Assembly: GCA_029570835.1 (NCBI GenBank)
Contig: JAKPTX010000139.1
Coordinates: 1 to 51,269 of the forward strand
Reading direction: 5' to 3'
Origin: Bacteroidota bacterium
GTDB taxonomy: Bacteria > Bacteroidota > Bacteroidia > Bacteroidales > WCHB1-69
DNA: 51,269 nucleotides
Positions 108 through 51,060 of this stretch are shown in pieces (the first letter of the stretch is position 1; each line of letters opens with the position of its first letter). Below the pieces are notes generated by a model. It saw only the letters and a list, made by a program, of their open reading frames with translations. It had not been told where the DNA came from and did no database searches. The position numbers were made by a program, and so were the translations under genes.

Positions 108-352
108 TAATTCGTAATTCGTAATTCACACTCCATATCAAAAATGGAAAATTTTCCAGAGTGGGGAAATAAAAATTCTAAAAAGGGAAATTTTTTCTGC
201 CCCCCAATTATTTAAATTTAGAAATTAGAAATCAGAAATTAGAAATATAAAGAATCTATATTGAGTATAAACTCCTGAAAATTAATTCTAAATTCTAAAT
301 TCTGAATTCTAAATTTAGGAATCGTAATTCGTAATTCGTAATTGAAGCAGTT
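108..352. repeat. Heptamer-phased repeat tract enclosing GAGTGGGG element copy A
   Basis: This spacer has no gene. Its bases can be written as 35 successive 7-base words without losing register: TAATTCG words at 108-128, AGAAATT-type words at 220-247, AAATTCT words at 283-310 and TAATTCG again at 325-338 (108, 206 and 325 are all 3 modulo 7). Inside it, GAGTGGGG (159-166) is followed after 30 bases by CTGCCCCCC (197-205). TGGAAAATTTTCCA at 145-158 is a perfect palindrome just before GAGTGGGG. The tract stops at the 3' end of the helicase gene. Confidence 0.8.
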
Positions 353-24319: not shown

Positions 24320-24515
24320 AACTGATTTCGGATTTCCGCCTTTTTTTGATTTCTAACTCGTAATTCGTAATTCGTAATTGGATTTATTTCGCCTTTCGAC
24401 TTTCGACTTTCGCCTTTATTTCCTGTTTTTTATTTTGGATTTTAAAAAAAAATAGGGGGCAGGACATTCTTTCCTATTTAGATATTTCATTTCCCCACTC
24501 GGAAAATATTGGAGC
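24320..24515 (-). repeat. Heptamer tract and GAGTGGGG element copy B (minus)
   Basis: On the minus strand GAGTGGGG (24500-24493) is followed after 30 bases by CTGCCCCC (24462-24455), then a T/A-rich tail and about 20 successive 7-base words in one register, including CGAAAGT, TTACGAA and AAATCCG words. It begins right after the methylase gene. The remainder, 24516-24660, is AT-rich with nothing recognised. Confidence 0.8.
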
Positions 24516-24660: not shown

Positions 24661-25266
24661 CTATTTTTTTGATTTAAGATATTTTTTCCCTTCCCAAACG
24701 AGATAATAAATCTTATTTTGATAATAAAATAACAACCAAAACAATCCTATAAACAAAATAATCAAAATTATAACTAACCCCAATGTGTTATTAAAATAAG
24801 TTTTGACAAATTTATAAATCATATTATCACAATGAACCAAGATAGCTATATAGAAAGGTATGACTCCAATAATATTTCTTATAAAAGCTACTTTAATTTC
24901 TAAATTTGGGATATTATTCAAAGAATTCTTTTTCATTAGAAAATAGTATGCTTTATAATACTTATCGTGAATTTCTTCTGTCACTAACTCTTTACCGATC
25001 TCTTTATTGTATAGTTTTTTATATTGTTCAGATATGAGACGTGCATTGTTTCTAAATCTATAAAAACATAAGTCTAATAATCTATGCCATAATAAACCGA
25101 TGAGATAACTCAAAAATAAAATTATGCTAACAAACCAAAAATTATTTGAGACTTCAGAACTAATTGGGAAATTACCAGATAAAAGAAATATTATTACCGA
25201 AATTAGTAATCCTGGTACAAGAATGGAAAAGAAGTCGTACACTGAAAATTTTGAAGAAAAATCCAT
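24661..25266 (-). CDS. Membrane protein of unknown function
   Basis: 201 residues with an N-terminal YDFFSILVPGLLISVIIFLLSG membrane segment, a second (VSIILFLSYLIGLLW), a basic cytoplasmic stretch (FYRFRNNARLISEQYKKLY) and two C-terminal segments (VIPFYIAILVH; LGLVIILIILFIGLFWLLFYY). The YDFxxxxxPG opening recurs in uncharacterised membrane proteins of accessory regions; I cannot give a function. Very AT-rich compared with flanking housekeeping genes. Last gene of the minus-strand accessory run. Confidence 0.75.
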   Translation of the reverse strand: MDFSSKFSVYDFFSILVPGLLISVIIFLLSGNFPISSEVSNNFWFVSIILFLSYLIGLLWHRLLDLCFYRFRNNARLISEQYKKLYNKEIGKELVTEEIHDKYYKAYYFLMKKNSLNNIPNLEIKVAFIRNIIGVIPFYIAILVHCDNMIYKFVKTYFNNTLGLVIILIILFIGLFWLLFYYQNKIYYLVWEGKKYLKSKK

Positions 25267-25721
25267 AATTAAACTGTTTATTTATTTGGGTTAAGTACTA
25301 ATTTAAAACATTAAATCTTTCAATATTAAATAGAGACGTTTTTTCAACCATTCTATTGTCATTAATATAGCGAGCAATTGCTAAAAAAACTCCGATGCCC
25401 ATGTTAGATCCTCAAAAAAAAGAAAATATAAATAAAATTGCAAACACTTTCACAGTGGATAAATGATGACAAAATAAATGTATAAATAAAAAATATTTTC
25501 CTTCTTCGGCGTAGGATAAATATTGGGGATAAACCAAAAATTGTACTCACTTCCATTTTTGTATGTGAATATAAACTATATTCTTCATTTTTAGAAAATG
25601 TTTTATTTACTTTTAAATAACTACATGTTTTGCCTAATATTTTTTGGTTATACGCTTTTGATATATTTTCAACTTTTTAAAATTTTTCTGCAGAAAAACA
25701 CGATTTATTTAATAAGGCACA
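25267..25721. other. AT-rich spacer with one very small ORF
   Basis: 455 bases without a convincing gene. A 34-codon minus-strand frame (25298-25402, MGIGVFLAIARYINDNRMVE...) looks protein-like and may be a gene fragment. No heptamer repeats are seen. Confidence 0.4.
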
Positions 25722-26372
25722 TTATTCTATTTTATTGTCATCATTGTTATTTGAATCAGTATTAAAGTTTTCTTGTTTAACTTCTAATTCATCTTCTAGG
25801 TCTGTCATTTTTCTAAAATTTTCCCTTAAGACAACTAGGAATAAAATATCCACAGTGTAAGAAATGATATGAAGCCATAAGGGAATTCCATATTCAAAAA
25901 TATAGTATATAGTGATAAGATTTAGTACAATTGTTAATACTGCATATATTATAAATAAAGTTCCTATTTTTTGCTCTTCTTTAATTTCATGCAGTTGTAT
26001 TCCAGCAACTAGAATTAATATTTTTTCTATAAAAATTAAGATTATAAATAAATATGCAAATACTTCACTATTAAATACTTCCAATAACCCAAAACATAGT
26101 ATTGCTACAATATCAACCCGAGCTATTACTACTAGTAAGGGGATCACCTTTTGATAAAATTTTTGGATATAATCCTTTAGCAGTAACCATATGCCTACAA
26201 ATGACAAATTTAGTAGTGCAAAAACAAGCAAATCAGGAATTTTTGTAATCCACCTAAATTTATATTCAATACCAACGTCTTGCATAAAACTAATAAAAGA
26301 AAATGCAATACCAAAATAACATAACAGGTTAATCAAGTATGCTTTGTCATAAATTTTTGATTTTTCAATCAT
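25722..26372 (-). CDS. Membrane protein of unknown function
   Basis: 216 residues, about six membrane segments (for example LINLLCYFGIAFSFISFMQDV, LLVFALLNLSFVGIWLLLKDYI, VIPLLVVIARVDIVAILCFGLLEVF, IGTLFIIYAVLTIVLNLITIYYIF) and an acidic, Asn/Asp-rich tail (DSNNNDDNKIE). No family recognised. AT-rich. A TAGCTTTG box lies 156 bases upstream, so it probably has a leader of about 150 bases. Confidence 0.72.
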   Translation of the reverse strand: MIEKSKIYDKAYLINLLCYFGIAFSFISFMQDVGIEYKFRWITKIPDLLVFALLNLSFVGIWLLLKDYIQKFYQKVIPLLVVIARVDIVAILCFGLLEVFNSEVFAYLFIILIFIEKILILVAGIQLHEIKEEQKIGTLFIIYAVLTIVLNLITIYYIFEYGIPLWLHIISYTVDILFLVVLRENFRKMTDLEDELEVKQENFNTDSNNNDDNKIE

Positions 26373-26754
26373 AACAATTAATTTTTAAAATTTGCACCTA
26401 CTCTTTTTAAGGTTTTCGGCTTTCCCTTTTTGGGTATTGTTATAGTTAAGGTAAGTACCAAACTATATTTAGGGCAGTATTTTTTATTTGTTTATATTCT
26501 TTTCAAAGAGCTTGATCTCTAAGTTTGCAAAGCTACTTGTTTTATTAATAATTTCAATAATTTTGTTCAATTAAAAAATGTAAACTATAATAACTAAAAA
26601 AATGTCAATTTTTAATCACTAATATTGTGCTTCTTTAAAATAAATTGCCCATACTCCCGTCTTTTGTATAAGTATATCACCTCTTTTTTCCATGTGACAG
26701 ATTGATTATTCCGGTGAAACTGAGATTACATTAACTTAATGCTATGACATTTTT
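26373..26754. other. Spacer carrying the leader of the upstream-facing gene
   Basis: 382 bases. It holds the leader and promoter of the 25722-26372 gene, including a motif at 26397-26420 (CCTACTCTTTTTAAGG then TTTTCGGC) that recurs at 28934-28958. The rest is AT-rich and shows nothing. Confidence 0.4.
26528..26535 (-). promoter_or_regulatory. Putative -7 box, minus strand
   Basis: TAGCTTTG on the minus strand fits TAnnTTTG and would start a leader of about 150 bases before the gene ending at 26372. Confidence 0.4.
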
Positions 26755-27138
26755 TTAATCCCAAAATGAATCATAATCATAAAATGTGTAATTTCCTTCA
26801 TACGATGTTATTTTCCAATCAAAATCTTTTGTTAAATAAAAAAATACATTAAAACTTAATCCATCACCAGTTATATATAAAACTTCAACTTCTGCAGACT
26901 TATTATCATCAGATATTTCTTCATCGATTATATTATAACTCACTAAGCCATCTTTTGCCCTATACATTTCTATATAATCTTCTTTAATTGAATTTGCCTC
27001 AATGTTTTTTGTGCATTTTGAAGCATTTTCATAGTCCCCTTCCATGACATAAAAACAAAAGTCCGAAACTTTTTCTCTAGGAGAAGAACAACTCATTAAT
27101 AAAAACAGTAATGTTGATATAAAAAAATACTTTTTCAT
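26755..27138 (-). CDS. DUF4878-like lipoprotein
   Basis: 127 residues from the ATG at 27138; lipobox LLMSC (MKKYFFISTLLFLLMSCSS). The mature part (VSDFCFYVMEGDYENASKCT...SAEVEVLYITGDGLSFNVFFYLTKDFDWKITSYEG) has the pattern of DUF4878/NTF2-like lipoproteins. The frame extends to 27177, but the signal peptide fixes the start. Function unknown. Promoter box TACATTTG at 27175-27182 (minus). Confidence 0.75.
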   Translation of the reverse strand: MKKYFFISTLLFLLMSCSSPREKVSDFCFYVMEGDYENASKCTKNIEANSIKEDYIEMYRAKDGLVSYNIIDEEISDDNKSAEVEVLYITGDGLSFNVFFYLTKDFDWKITSYEGNYTFYDYDSFWD

Positions 27139-27174
27139 AATGGATATTGTTTGAATTGTTATAATTTCTACTCT

Positions 27175-27182
27175 CAAATGTA
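27175..27182 (-). promoter_or_regulatory. Putative -7 box for DUF4878-like lipoprotein
   Basis: TACATTTG on the minus strand, 36 bases before the ATG at 27138. Confidence 0.45.
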
Positions 27183-27218
27183 ACCTTGGAGGTTTAATGT
27201 TAATGTTATTAAAAAATA

Positions 27219-27540
27219 TTAGTCAGGTGTAACATATCTATTTAGTTCTTTTAATATTTCATCTATTGGTATGACATTTATAATTCAAAAAACTTGCAGG
27301 ATTCATGTACAATTTTAATTGATATGATAGTTTTACTAGTTTTGAATTATCTTCTTTTTCAGTAATTGCAATTGCACAAAACTCGGCAACTGCTTTACGA
27401 AGTTCTGTTAAGTACTCCTTTCGAGCAATCGTTATTGTGTTAATAAAAGTGTTTTTGTTTGATTGCCTCAAAGTTACAAAAATATTAGTTAAACTAACGG
27501 CAAGTGTAAATATTATACCAATGAAAGTAATTAAGTCCAT
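27219..27540 (-). CDS. Small membrane-anchored protein, possible 3' frameshift
   Basis: One N-terminal membrane segment (LITFIGIIFTLAVSLTNIFVTL) and a helical cytoplasmic part (TIARKEYLTELRKAVAEFCAIAITEKEDNSKLVKLSYQLKLYMNPASF). The frame as written stops at 27259 with an unlikely end (LNYKCHTNR). Just after a run of T in an adjoining frame, IINVIPIDEILKELNRYVTPD continues to a stop at 27219, which looks more natural. Either a frameshift or sequencing error near 27283-27292, or a real short end. No family recognised. Confidence 0.55.
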
Positions 27541-27561
27541 ATCTTTTTTTTTAGAGTGATG

Positions 27562-27966
27562 TTAATCGTGATCGTCATTGTCATCGTCATCATCACCACT
27601 AAAAATTCCGGAAAATAACACGTAAATTGACATAATAAATGCTATCATTGATAGAAATAGCATAATCCATTGTAGCAGTGGTGAATCAAAGAAGTGACCA
27701 TCTTTTACAAACCCATAATATTTTTCATTAATACGAAAGAGAAAGCCATCGGGATCAAGAATAACGCTTGATTCAAATTGTCCGGTATAAAGATAGTGGA
27801 GGAAAGCATCTATTTCTATTCCCAAAATCAAATGCCAACTACCAAAATAAAATAAAGCCAATCCAATCCCAACGACAATAATAAATCCAATTATTCTTCC
27901 ACCCCAACCCCAAGACTTATTTTCTTCTTTTGTTTTTTTCTCATCATTTTTTTTTATTTCTTCCAT
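27562..27966 (-). CDS. Membrane protein with acidic tail, unknown function
   Basis: 134 residues: charged N-terminus (EEIKKNDEKKTKEENK), two membrane segments (RIIGFIIVVGIGLALFYFGSWHLIL; LLQWIMLFLSMIAFIMSIYVLFSGIF), a central soluble region, and a tail of Asp (SGDDDDDNDDHD). No family recognised. It precedes the 27219-27540 gene by 21 bases. Confidence 0.7.
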   Translation of the reverse strand: MEEIKKNDEKKTKEENKSWGWGGRIIGFIIVVGIGLALFYFGSWHLILGIEIDAFLHYLYTGQFESSVILDPDGFLFRINEKYYGFVKDGHFFDSPLLQWIMLFLSMIAFIMSIYVLFSGIFSGDDDDDNDDHD

Positions 27967-28075
27967 TTTTAATTGATTGATTAGTTGATTGTTTTTAAAA
28001 TTTTATTAAATATGATTATGCAAAATTGGCTCTTGATAGAGTTCATCTTAAAGCTAATTATGATTTGAAATTAGA

Positions 28076-28864
28076 TTAGTGCTTTCTTGACATTTCTTTC
28101 ATCTCTCTCCAATATTTTTTTAACTTTTTCCAAGCAGAACCACTAACATATTCTTTCTTTCCATCCTCGTCATATAACTGCCGACCATATTTATCTTTTC
28201 TCTCTTTGCTAGAATCAGCAATTAAAAGAGTCAATGTAATTAAAAACAATACAAGAGCAGAAAGGAGAAATGCAGATTTACATATAATAGAAATAACTTT
28301 AAAATTTATAGGATGAGATGTCCGTATGGTTAGAAAAACTGATATAAAAAAAGGAATTAGTGCTAAAACTAGTAATATACCAGAGAAGTTACCCTGATTT
28401 ATAGATAATATCGTAAATGTCATAAAAACAGCAGAAATTACAAGAAGAACGATATCCCAAATGGTAAAAAATATTGGAATTCTTTTTTTATATGATATTC
28501 TAAAGAGTATAAAGAAAACAACAAGAGAAATTAAACCCATATAGAATAATGGACGTAAAAAAAAGTCATCTTTTTTTTCTTTTACCGAACTATTGTCTGT
28601 CTTGATTATAGTTTCCAAGTATTGCATCATAACATATCCTTCAGAGTTGTTTGATAATGTAATTTTTCCCCATTCATTACCATCTTCTGAAGTTATTATT
28701 TCTTGTAAATTCACAACATCATTTTGGTAGAGCTGTCCTATAACTTCGCAGTTTTTATTTGCACAGGCTCTTATGTTTAGCTTGTTTGCTGTTACCTTGT
28801 AGTTATCAGCGAACGCAACTACATTCAACATAATAAGTAGTATAAAAACTAGATATTTTTTCAT
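28076..28864 (-). CDS. SH3-domain membrane protein
   Basis: 262 residues from the ATG at 28864. Signal peptide (YLVFILLIMLNVVAFA), then a bacterial SH3 domain (YKVTANKLNIRACANKNCEVIGQLYQNDVVNLQE...WGKITLSNNSEGYVMMQYL), then about four membrane segments and a charged C-terminus (KYWREMKEMSRKH). SH3b domains often bind peptidoglycan. The open frame extends to 28918, but the signal peptide sets the start. Role unknown. Confidence 0.77.
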   Translation of the reverse strand: MKKYLVFILLIMLNVVAFADNYKVTANKLNIRACANKNCEVIGQLYQNDVVNLQEIITSEDGNEWGKITLSNNSEGYVMMQYLETIIKTDNSSVKEKKDDFFLRPLFYMGLISLVVFFILFRISYKKRIPIFFTIWDIVLLVISAVFMTFTILSINQGNFSGILLVLALIPFFISVFLTIRTSHPINFKVISIICKSAFLLSALVLFLITLTLLIADSSKERKDKYGRQLYDEDGKKEYVSGSAWKKLKKYWREMKEMSRKH

Positions 28865-28978
28865 ATTTGACAAATTTAATGTGTTCATTTTTGATACCCT
28901 CATTCGTGTCGGGTGCAACTTTTTAAAATGGAATGCCTACTCTGTTTAACGCTTTTCGGCGATGGTGTTTAAATATTA

Positions 28979-30016
28979 CTATAATGGGAAGGAATAAAAT
29001 CCATTATCGATCAGCATTTTAGCAAAAGTAAGACCGTCTACCAAATAGACATTTTCCTCTTTAGCAAGTTTCTTCGTATCGTCAGTGAAGTCATCACACG
29101 TGGAAATTACCCACAATTGAGTTGAACGGTCCTCTAGACTACGTTCAAAGGTCTTGGCGTAAGAGGTAATTTGTTCAACTGCCCAAGAATCTGTATTACC
29201 GCTATGTGCTTTTACTTGAATCAATATGGTGTGATTATTTAATTTATCAAAGGTCGCGATTACATCCGTATCACCATCTTCAGTTGAGGCAGAGTTTTTA
29301 GCAGGCACATCAACGGAAGCTCCTAAAGATTCCATATACCATCTCACCAAATCTTCAATTTTACGGTCGTTCATCAATTCGCGCATCTGTTGACTAAGAA
29401 CTTTAGCAGATTCATCTATAAATGCAGCTCTTAAATTGATCGGTTCTTTCTTTTCAATAGCTAACCCCACATCTTCTGCTAAATCTGAAATATTCGCATT
29501 GGTAGTCATGATTTTCATACGGGAATATAATTTTTGAGTGGCGTATTCGTTACGCGATATGTTTAATCTAATCGGTGTAACTTTTCGATAAAATCCCATA
29601 TCTATTTCACCATGCTCGTATTCGGGATACCCATTTTTATTCAATACAGCCTGCTTGCCATTCCAATTTACCCACAAATTTTGATCAAAAGTTTCATTGT
29701 TAAACACTACATTGTCTGTAATTTGGTAAATGCTGAATTCTCCACCATCCAGTGGAACTACTACAATGTCACCCTGTTTCATTTCTTTTAAAAAGCGCCA
29801 TAGGTTGTTTCTATTTCGTGGACGTCCCCATCCAATTTCTTCAAAAACTTTTTCAAAAGATTCTCTATCTTTGATAAGTCTCTTGTGAAAATTCTGATCA
29901 GATAAATCACTCCAACCGATGGAGATAATGTTGTGTTTTGTAAGCAGTTCGTGTGTGAACGGCCAAGCGTGGTCGCCACATTTGCAACGATGTAACCAAT
30001 AATTTTTTTCTTCCAT
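28979..30016 (-). CDS. Mrr-type restriction endonuclease
   Basis: Two parts. The N-terminal 150 residues (WLHRCKCGDHAWPFTHELLTKHNIISIGWSDLS...FLKEMKQGDIVVVPLDGGEFSIYQI) look like an EVE/PUA-type or other nucleic-acid-reading domain. The C-terminal part is an Mrr-like PD-(D/E)xK nuclease: MESLGASVDVP, Asp in EDGDTDVIATFD, and the QVK of ILIQVKAHSG, then WVISTCDDFTDDTKKLAKEENVYLVDG. This suggests modification-dependent or type IV-like cleavage; no methylase is next to it. It has a long leader (about 230 bases) and a divergent WYL gene upstream. Confidence 0.82.
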   Translation of the reverse strand: MEEKNYWLHRCKCGDHAWPFTHELLTKHNIISIGWSDLSDQNFHKRLIKDRESFEKVFEEIGWGRPRNRNNLWRFLKEMKQGDIVVVPLDGGEFSIYQITDNVVFNNETFDQNLWVNWNGKQAVLNKNGYPEYEHGEIDMGFYRKVTPIRLNISRNEYATQKLYSRMKIMTTNANISDLAEDVGLAIEKKEPINLRAAFIDESAKVLSQQMRELMNDRKIEDLVRWYMESLGASVDVPAKNSASTEDGDTDVIATFDKLNNHTILIQVKAHSGNTDSWAVEQITSYAKTFERSLEDRSTQLWVISTCDDFTDDTKKLAKEENVYLVDGLTFAKMLIDNGFYSFPL

Positions 30017-31620: not shown

Positions 31621-31700
31621 CATGATGTTATTATGCGACAGATTTAAATTAATTTCAAATATTTGATATTCATGAAATTACGGGACAAAAATATTAATTG

Positions 31701-31925
31701 AACGTGGTTGTAGAGACGCAATGCTTTGCGTCTCTAAGACAATATTCACATTTCCATGCACATAACCACAAAACGATCCATTCATTCCGAAATCCGAAAT
31801 TGTTTCCAGAGTGGGGTAGTGGAATAACAAAAGAGACACCTCAAATCCTGCCCCCCATTTTTTTTTAATCCAAAATAAAAAACAGGAAAAAACAGGAAAT
31901 CTATTAAAGTCGAAAGGCGTTTTTT
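31701..31925 (+). repeat. Composite repeat copy C: palindrome plus GAGTGGGG element
   Basis: A REP palindrome (TAGAGACGCAA and TTGCGTCTCTA arms, 31711-31736) is followed by about 65 bases of shared DNA and then GAGTGGGG (31809-31816), 31 bases, CTGCCCCCC (31848-31856) and a T/A-rich tail running into heptamer words (AAAGTCG, AAAGGCG). 31701-31856 aligns with 35456-35608 at roughly 85 percent, by eye. 31804-31856 is identical to 50888-50940. Confidence 0.85.
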
Positions 31926-35455: not shown

Positions 35456-35818
35456 AACGTGGCTGTAGAGACGCAATGCTTTGCGTCTCTATGACAATAT
35501 GCACATTTCCATACACATAACCACAAAGGATCCATATATTTCGAAATCCGAAATCGTTTCCGAGTGGGGAAACGGAATAACTAAATAGGGAAGAGTGTCC
35601 TGCCCCCCTTTTATTTAAAATACCAAATAAGAAATCAGAAATAAGAAATAAAGGCGAAAGTCGAAAGTTGGAAGGCAATATAAAACAATTACATCCTGAA
35701 CCTAAAAAATCGAAATCCGAAGATATTCTAAACTGTTTTTTTATTCCGATATCCGCCCTCCGCCTTCCGCCTTTTAATTCTAAATTCTAATTTCTAATTT
35801 CTAAATTTTATTTATCTT
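35456..35818 (+). repeat. Composite repeat copy D and the longest heptamer mosaic
   Basis: Palindrome at 35466-35491, GAGTGGGG at 35562-35569, 30 bases, CTGCCCCCC at 35600-35608. From 35609 to 35811 the DNA divides into 29 successive 7-base words: purine-rich words first (AGAAATA, AAGGCGA), then pyrimidine-rich words (CCTTCCG, TTTCTAA). It ends at the kamD promoter. No gene. Confidence 0.88.
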
Positions 35819-40184: not shown

Positions 40185-40290
40185 ATAAAATAGAAGAGTG
40201 GGGTGATAAATTAGCAGTTACGGGAGGTTTTGTCTGCCCCCCTTTTATTTTAAATACCAAATAAGAAGTAAGAAATTAGAAGTAAAGATA
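40185..40290 (+). repeat. GAGTGGGG element copy E
   Basis: GAGTGGGG (40196-40203), 30 bases, CTGCCCCCC (40234-40242), then TTTTATTTTAAATACC and AAATAAG-type heptamers. The centre differs most from the other copies. Confidence 0.75.
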
Positions 40291-50887: not shown

Positions 50888-51060
50888 TTCCAGAGTGGGG
50901 TAGTGGAATAACAAAAGAGACACCTCAAATCCTGCCCCCCTTTTATTTTAAATACCAAATAAGAAGTAAAAAATAAGAAATATGACATTGCTGTAAAGAC
51001 GCAATGCTTTGCGTCTCTAAGATAAAACGTGATTCCGCCTTCCGCCTTCAACCTTCCGCC
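50888..51060 (+). repeat. GAGTGGGG element copy F plus palindrome
   Basis: GAGTGGGG (50893-50900), 31 bases, CTGCCCCCC (50932-50940), tail TTTTATTTTAAATACC, then heptamers and the palindrome TAAAGACGCAA...TTGCGTCTCTA (50994-51019, one mismatch). 53 bases are identical to copy C, but the tail follows copies D and E. Confidence 0.85.

Follow-up and report, generated by a model that had tools for sequence, protein, structure and literature searches.

The six similar elements in the window, the stretch of 51,269 nucleotides analysed here, probably belong to a genus-restricted intergenic mosaic repeat, which consists of a 5′ module, a core of 29–31 bases and a T-rich 3′ module, with two nearly invariant boxes acting as exchange junctions. 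The family itself, the constraint on its boxes and the mosaic arrangement of its modules emerge from comparing the sequences of two drafts. One is the genome of the window (G000; 2.92 Mb, 277 contigs), and the other (G001) is that of the sister species Bacteroidales bacterium UBA5429, which belongs to the same genus and is 98% complete. The copies in the window, with copy C divided into its parts, are as follows:

159..205, plus strand: copy A, spacing 30
24455..24500, minus strand: copy B, spacing 30, with a T after the C box; ends in CTGCCCCCT
31804..31808, plus strand: copy C, end of the 5′ module, TTCCA
31809..31816, plus strand: copy C, G box GAGTGGGG
31817..31847, plus strand: copy C, variable core of 31 bases, the same as the core of copy F
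31848..31856, plus strand: copy C, C box CTGCCCCCC
31857..31885, plus strand: copy C, 3′ module, a T-tract followed by an A-rich tail
35562..35608, plus strand: copy D, spacing 30
40196..40242, plus strand: copy E, spacing 30
50893..50940, plus strand: copy F, spacing 31

All six copies had been located correctly in an earlier note on this DNA. Five of them are exact instances of GAGTGGGG-N30/31-CTGCCCCCC and copy B ends in CTGCCCCCT; the maximum count over 100 dinucleotide shuffles of the window was 0. Copies C and F have identical cores and different 5′ modules. Copy B has a counterpart in UBA5429 with one core base changed, which was not placed as an ortholog in the flank comparison, and the UBA5429 ortholog of copy D has a similar core (0.93). 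Copy E lies at or adjoins a break of synteny with UBA5429; its core equals that of a copy on contig C87, and the 56 upstream bases of both are also alike. The spacing, described previously as fixed, is indeed narrow but varies: among 143 unique copies with flanks, 98 have a spacing of 30, 30 of 31, 14 of 29 and one of 28.

Searches with the pattern GAGTGGGG-N26..36-CTGCCCCC gave 125 exact matches in G000 and 154 in UBA5429, versus 0 in both for the reversed pattern used as a control. Among 60 relatives, the exact pattern is found 154 times in UBA5429 and once in G003, a member of another genus; it is absent from G002, which is of the same genus and 65% complete. A covariance model, as proposed in the earlier note, recovered copies in three of 104 family genomes (G000, UBA5429 and the single copy in G003), where no more than 38 candidates per genome were scored. 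Exact matches in the genome collection beyond UBA5429 number one per record among the matches listed, and five single matches in viral contigs were read as chance. By these comparisons, the repeat family is apparently restricted to one little-known bacterial genus. A literature search with the G box GAGTGGGG as a word returned no on-topic title among the matches listed, and further searches on the repeat gave analogues or nothing; we claim its absence from print no further. All comparisons are between two draft genomes, partly sampled: the regions compared cover 808 kb in G000 and 1,471 kb in UBA5429, and the box-conservation counts used the first 696 kb of the latter. In UBA5429, six draft contigs (C1, C2, C3, C7, C10 and C14) stop some 300 bases or less from a copy, so assembly was probably interrupted by the repeat or by its surroundings.

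A copy spans about 100 bases and is laid out as 5′ module, G box GAGTGGGG, core, C box CTGCCCCC and 3′ module. The 5′ module often ends in TTCCA, the core measures 29–31 bases and the 3′ module starts with a T-tract. With a profile built from exact-box cores, 77 copies scored above 28 in G000 (808 kb) and 128 in UBA5429 (1,471 kb). Both boxes are exact in 73 copies in the 808 kb of G000 and in 66 copies in the 696 kb of UBA5429, and near-exact copies scoring above 30 number five and seven, respectively. Point substitutions account for two of these near-exact copies in G000, with one substitution each, and for three in UBA5429, with four in all; the others (three in G000, four in UBA5429) seem to be interrupted by a different repeat, which ends in GAGGAGGGG. 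This interrupting repeat, CCACCCCGCCC...GAGGAGGGG, is seen just past the G box at L044, L101, L106, L069, L076 and L084 as well as at G-box-only sites. Weak sites with changed boxes, scoring 20–30, are few (five in G000, one in UBA5429), and these six may be decayed copies or unrelated. Conversely, an exact C box lies within 52 bases of 72 of the 75 intergenic G boxes in G000 and of 116 of the 123 in UBA5429. Ten G boxes lack one: six lead into that interrupting repeat, in three the C box carries a substitution, and the last seems unrelated. Cores of random copy pairs are 62% identical on average (about 38% different). Judged from these counts, the boxes are much better conserved than the core, and their uniformity could itself come from frequent conversion. 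In five of 200 copies (C62 and C92 of G000; C12, C17 and C6 of UBA5429), a second module of 109–120 bases follows, with a second C-run and T-tract. Seven-base tandem repeats flank many copies, with CGTAATT on the G side and, on the C side, either AAGAAAT or GTCGAAA, and other palindromic repeats (GTAGAGACGC..., GTAGGGGCAGGG...) occur near or directly upstream of copies (window 31700-31760; L010, L011, L018, L019, L025).

The mosaic character shows in the linkage between positions, calculated as normalised mutual information over 128 unique 30-spaced copies without N. At distances of 10–14 bases, linkage within the 5′ module, core and 3′ module is 0.078, 0.031 and 0.062, versus 0.013 over the G box and 0.004 over the C box. 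The corresponding values at 15–19 bases are 0.062, 0.025 and 0.053 within the modules and 0.015 and -0.003 over the G and C boxes. Part of the linkage in the 5′ module may come from palindromic upstream types. Identical cores provide a second line of evidence. Among 190 copies compared, six pairs within one genome share a core exactly. In four of them, one being copies C and F, the match upstream of the G box extends over at most five bases; of the remaining two, one matches over 56 bases upstream and the other is part of a longer duplicated segment. Towards the 3′ side, similarity in the same four pairs continues, with mismatches, for 9–39 bases, and the break is thus sharper at the G box.

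Orthologous sites tell the same story. Such sites could be assessed for 31 of the 77 G000 copies; 28 were excluded for flanks on different contigs or strands, 16 had no flank and two had far flanks. UBA5429 has a same-orientation copy at 26 of the 31 sites. At three of the others it has no copy and at two its only copy is in the opposite orientation; the mapping is poor for some of these five. We compared the cores in 24 of the 26 pairs, since two are interrupted by another repeat in G000; none was dropped for a changed UBA5429 box. Both copies have exact boxes in these 24 pairs; 14 retain the core (identity 0.83–1.00) and 10 have had it replaced (0.48–0.77), with boxes and orientation unchanged at the replaced sites. 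Two of the 24 pairs come from UBA5429 intervals longer than 5 kb and may be non-orthologous, and two G000 copies map to one UBA5429 copy. All three modules are kept in only two pairs, one being the in-gene copy described below; the cut-off for the 3′ module was 0.92, and several ‘different’ calls at 0.80–0.88 could be plain divergence. As far as the compared sequences indicate, the modules assort independently, and cores have been replaced, or copied from one site to another, with the boxes as limits.

Larger rearrangements also coincide with copies. Counting G000 gaps of at least 250 bases mapped on both sides, synteny with UBA5429 is broken in 12 of 34 gaps with a copy and in one of 25 without (Fisher p 0.004; the counts are small). 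Of the 12 copy-bearing breaks, five have both sides within UBA5429 contigs. One side reaches a contig end in four more, and both sides do so in the other three, which are possibly assembly breaks and two of which share one junction. The sole break without a copy is in the gap neighbouring copy E’s junction, so that the true break lies in one of these two gaps. The rearrangement at copy E looks reciprocal: C84 joins UBA5429 C15 to C39, and C55, in a copy-bearing gap, joins C39 to C15. Copy-bearing gaps exceed the others in length (505 versus 371 bases), which may contribute to the excess of breaks. Of the readings offered in the earlier note, that of a recombination site is the best supported, given the drop of linkage at both boxes, the replaced orthologous cores and the commoner synteny breaks.

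How the exchange works, and whether the host gains by it, is a matter of inference from these patterns. A putative factor might recognise either the boxes themselves or, in single-stranded DNA, their G4/C5 complementarity. Recombination or template switching between dispersed copies would then resolve at the boxes, modules would be exchanged thereby, and larger rearrangements might sometimes follow. A more specialised version is possible, if at fairly low probability, namely a dedicated box-specific recombination system in which an unrecognised enzyme would swap cassettes of 46–48 bases among more than 100 intergenic sites, keeping site, orientation and boxes and replacing the content.

Copies are almost exclusively intergenic (202 of 205, according to codon-model gene calls). 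In both species, a gene whose protein carries lamin-tail and CHU_C domains contains a conserved exact-box copy in antisense orientation (L046:15277-15339 on G000 C55; G001 C15:109777-109837). Leaving out 24 copies at stretch edges and three overlapping genes, we could assign 178 of the 205 to a gap type: convergent gaps (30 kb) hold 59, co-directional gaps (104 kb) 90 and divergent gaps (47 kb) 29. Among the co-directional ones, 47 copies run along the genes and 43 against them, revealing no polarity. The C side of solitary copies is closer to a gene in 73 of 122 cases (p 0.037). The listed exact copies (166, comprising 100 of 125 in G000 and 66 of 154 in UBA5429) are divergent whenever consecutive ones lie less than 1 kb apart (15/15), with C boxes outward; once near-exact copies are included, one ++ pair appears among the close pairs. 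Alternation of orientation between consecutive exact copies is clear in the 66 from UBA5429 (40/52; 28/39 for gaps longer than 3 kb) and weak in the 100 from G000 (40/64; 27/47). Local GC skew is unrelated to orientation in 107 solitary copies, giving no link to the replication strand, and the spacing along the genome does not differ from that of a random choice of gaps.

Copies are densest in convergent gaps, which fits a reading that we consider unlikely, in which the repeat is an intrinsic terminator or transcription insulator, with GGGG–CCCC pairing over a long loop and a T-tract halting read-through into neighbouring genes. Five T positions of the tail are conserved in at least 90% of 67 copies. 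A scan for the 3′ module in the G000 and UBA5429 stretches gave 158 windows above threshold, of which 139 follow CTGCCCCC and 19 (17 places) follow another C-run; none of the 158 lacks a C-run, and the reversed control gave 0. The 17 places comprise three copies of the family whose C box is altered, five second modules and nine other C-runs, all with the family tail and one of them read as a G6/C6 hairpin after a gene. A scan for solitary 5′ modules gave 434 matches without a G box versus 300 in the reversed control. Hairpins of the form G-run/C-run/T-tract sit after genes in UBA5429: 15 matches are intergenic, all in UBA5429 stretches, 12 on the same strand as the genes and three on the opposite one (three hairpins were counted on both strands, and 15 more matches lie inside genes). 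The terminator-like character proposed in the earlier note holds for the tail only, with its C-run and T-tract as in these hairpins, and the orientation that such a function would impose is missing in co-directional gaps. Moreover, the stem has just 4–5 pairs around more than 30 bases, with structure no greater than in shuffles, and termination leaves both the core replacement and the invariant GAG and CTG unexplained. In sequence, the 3′ module resembles terminator tails, and the family as a whole is not terminator-oriented. The tail may derive from an intrinsic terminator, as its resemblance suggests; terminator action is not the main present constraint on it.

It is quite unlikely that the family is a miniature inverted-repeat element (MITE), or another kind of non-autonomous transposon, that a transposase dispersed and that has since become partly mosaic. 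High copy number and intergenic preference would agree with it, as would the outward-facing close pairs, which form imperfect inverted repeats, and the presence of DDE_Tnp_1 matches in both copy-rich genomes (eight in G000, two in UBA5429). Yet no target duplication was seen by eye in the displayed close pairs, the inner sequences of close pairs differ, and boxes are mostly intact despite differing cores. For the same reason, decay products of one IS end, the outcome that the earlier note had set against its own proposal, do not fit. An empty core site is likewise not found, considering that no 3′ module lacks a C-run and that nearly all intergenic G boxes have a C box. Y1, IS110 and rve have no match in UBA5429, despite its 154 copies; Y1 transposase has two matches in G000. 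Apart from DDE_Tnp_1, the enzyme matches in UBA5429 are two tyrosine recombinases, one reverse transcriptase and one resolvase. Tyrosine recombinases are present in all 10 genomes searched, and we take the UBA5429 pair as putative housekeeping Xer proteins. The resolvase occurs in 10 of 24 family genomes, including G000 and UBA5429, and is absent from G002 and G003; we rejected it as the enzyme of the repeat, since it is also present in eight of the 20 other family genomes without the repeat and so does not track it. None of the seven families searched (Y1, reverse transcriptase, IS110, tyrosine recombinase, DDE_Tnp_1, rve and resolvase) tracks the repeat, and a factor from some other enzyme family is possible.

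A structured small RNA or pseudoknot, also suggested previously, is very improbable and largely refuted. Every selected copy has GGGG/CCCC complementarity, and plus-strand minimum-energy folds form this pairing in 116 of 133. It is also the only pairing predicted by RNAalifold, without covariation, the columns being invariant partly since copies were selected by their boxes. The TTCCA/TGGAA and TTCCG/CGGAA sequences taken before as a compensatory change do exist, but not as compensation: over 133 distinct cores, the five pairs form no more often than column composition predicts, and in 67 aligned copies 76.3% of cells of the TTCC/GGAA stem pair, versus 76.6% in shuffles. Interiors fold as their shuffled versions do (mean z -0.05 for one strand and 0.14 for the other). 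Mutual information over 95 unique 30-spaced copies without N placed no long-range core-internal pair among the 40 strongest couplings, and no covariation emerged. Neither did any Rfam family reach threshold for the repeat, and transcription polarity is absent. Elsewhere in the window, an Rfam match to DUF805b RNA lies at 26395-26429 on the minus strand, inside a low-G+C stretch (0.293 at 25001-30000).

A remnant of coding sequence in the frame P-E-W-G...C-P-P is hardly credible: stops interrupt forward frame 0 in 39 of 143 copies, compared with 94 and 119 for the other forward frames and 84 for shuffles, but one reverse frame is poorer still in stops (20/143), the counts are non-independent as the copies share ancestry, cores of 29 or 31 bases do not preserve the frame, and the synonymous share in close core pairs (19/74, 10/34 and 2/16 for 30-, 31- and 29-base cores; expected 23–26%) reveals no amino-acid constraint on substitutions, for which we rejected it.

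As an intergenic mosaic repeat with probable exchange at its boxes, the family resembles elements such as dRS3/NIME and BOX in kind. The neisserial dRS3 is described as a 20-base repeat, ATTCCC-N8-GGGAAT, with 6-base inverted ends and as a target of phage integrase, and dRS3/NIME as hundreds of short intergenic repeats that form mosaics with other repeat units and are proposed to promote recombination (PMC3898611). Conserved ends, a variable centre, small size, intergenic location and mosaic combination are common to both (PMC3898611). Unlike in dRS3, the boxes GAGTGGGG/CTGCCCCC form no 6-base inverted repeat, the centre measures 28–31 bases versus N8, and no phage integrase is linked to the family. 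The pneumococcal BOX, a modular intergenic repeat as well, is outlined as boxA-boxB(n)-boxC with a variable number of boxB and predicted RNA folding (PMC3049150). The present family differs from that outline in having usually three modules, an unstructured core and swapping at the boxes; the two are set apart by layout, not by sequence comparison. High copy number, intergenic location and neighbours in opposite orientation recall REP/BIME (PMC2817692, PMC3733652). In contrast to these, there is no palindrome of 20–40 bases, only four constant pairs around a long unstructured interior, and in contrast to the REP-associated Y1 systems, UBA5429 with its 154 copies has no Y1 transposase match. Separate REP-like palindromes adjoin some copies.

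Transposition followed by decay is the usual explanation for intergenic repeats in bacteria. In this family, two boxes of eight bases have mostly stayed intact, and the segments between them and on either side appear to be exchanged at the same sites across two species. The family may therefore offer a testable case for exchange guided by short boxes and for the reshuffling of intergenic regions without an evident transposase.
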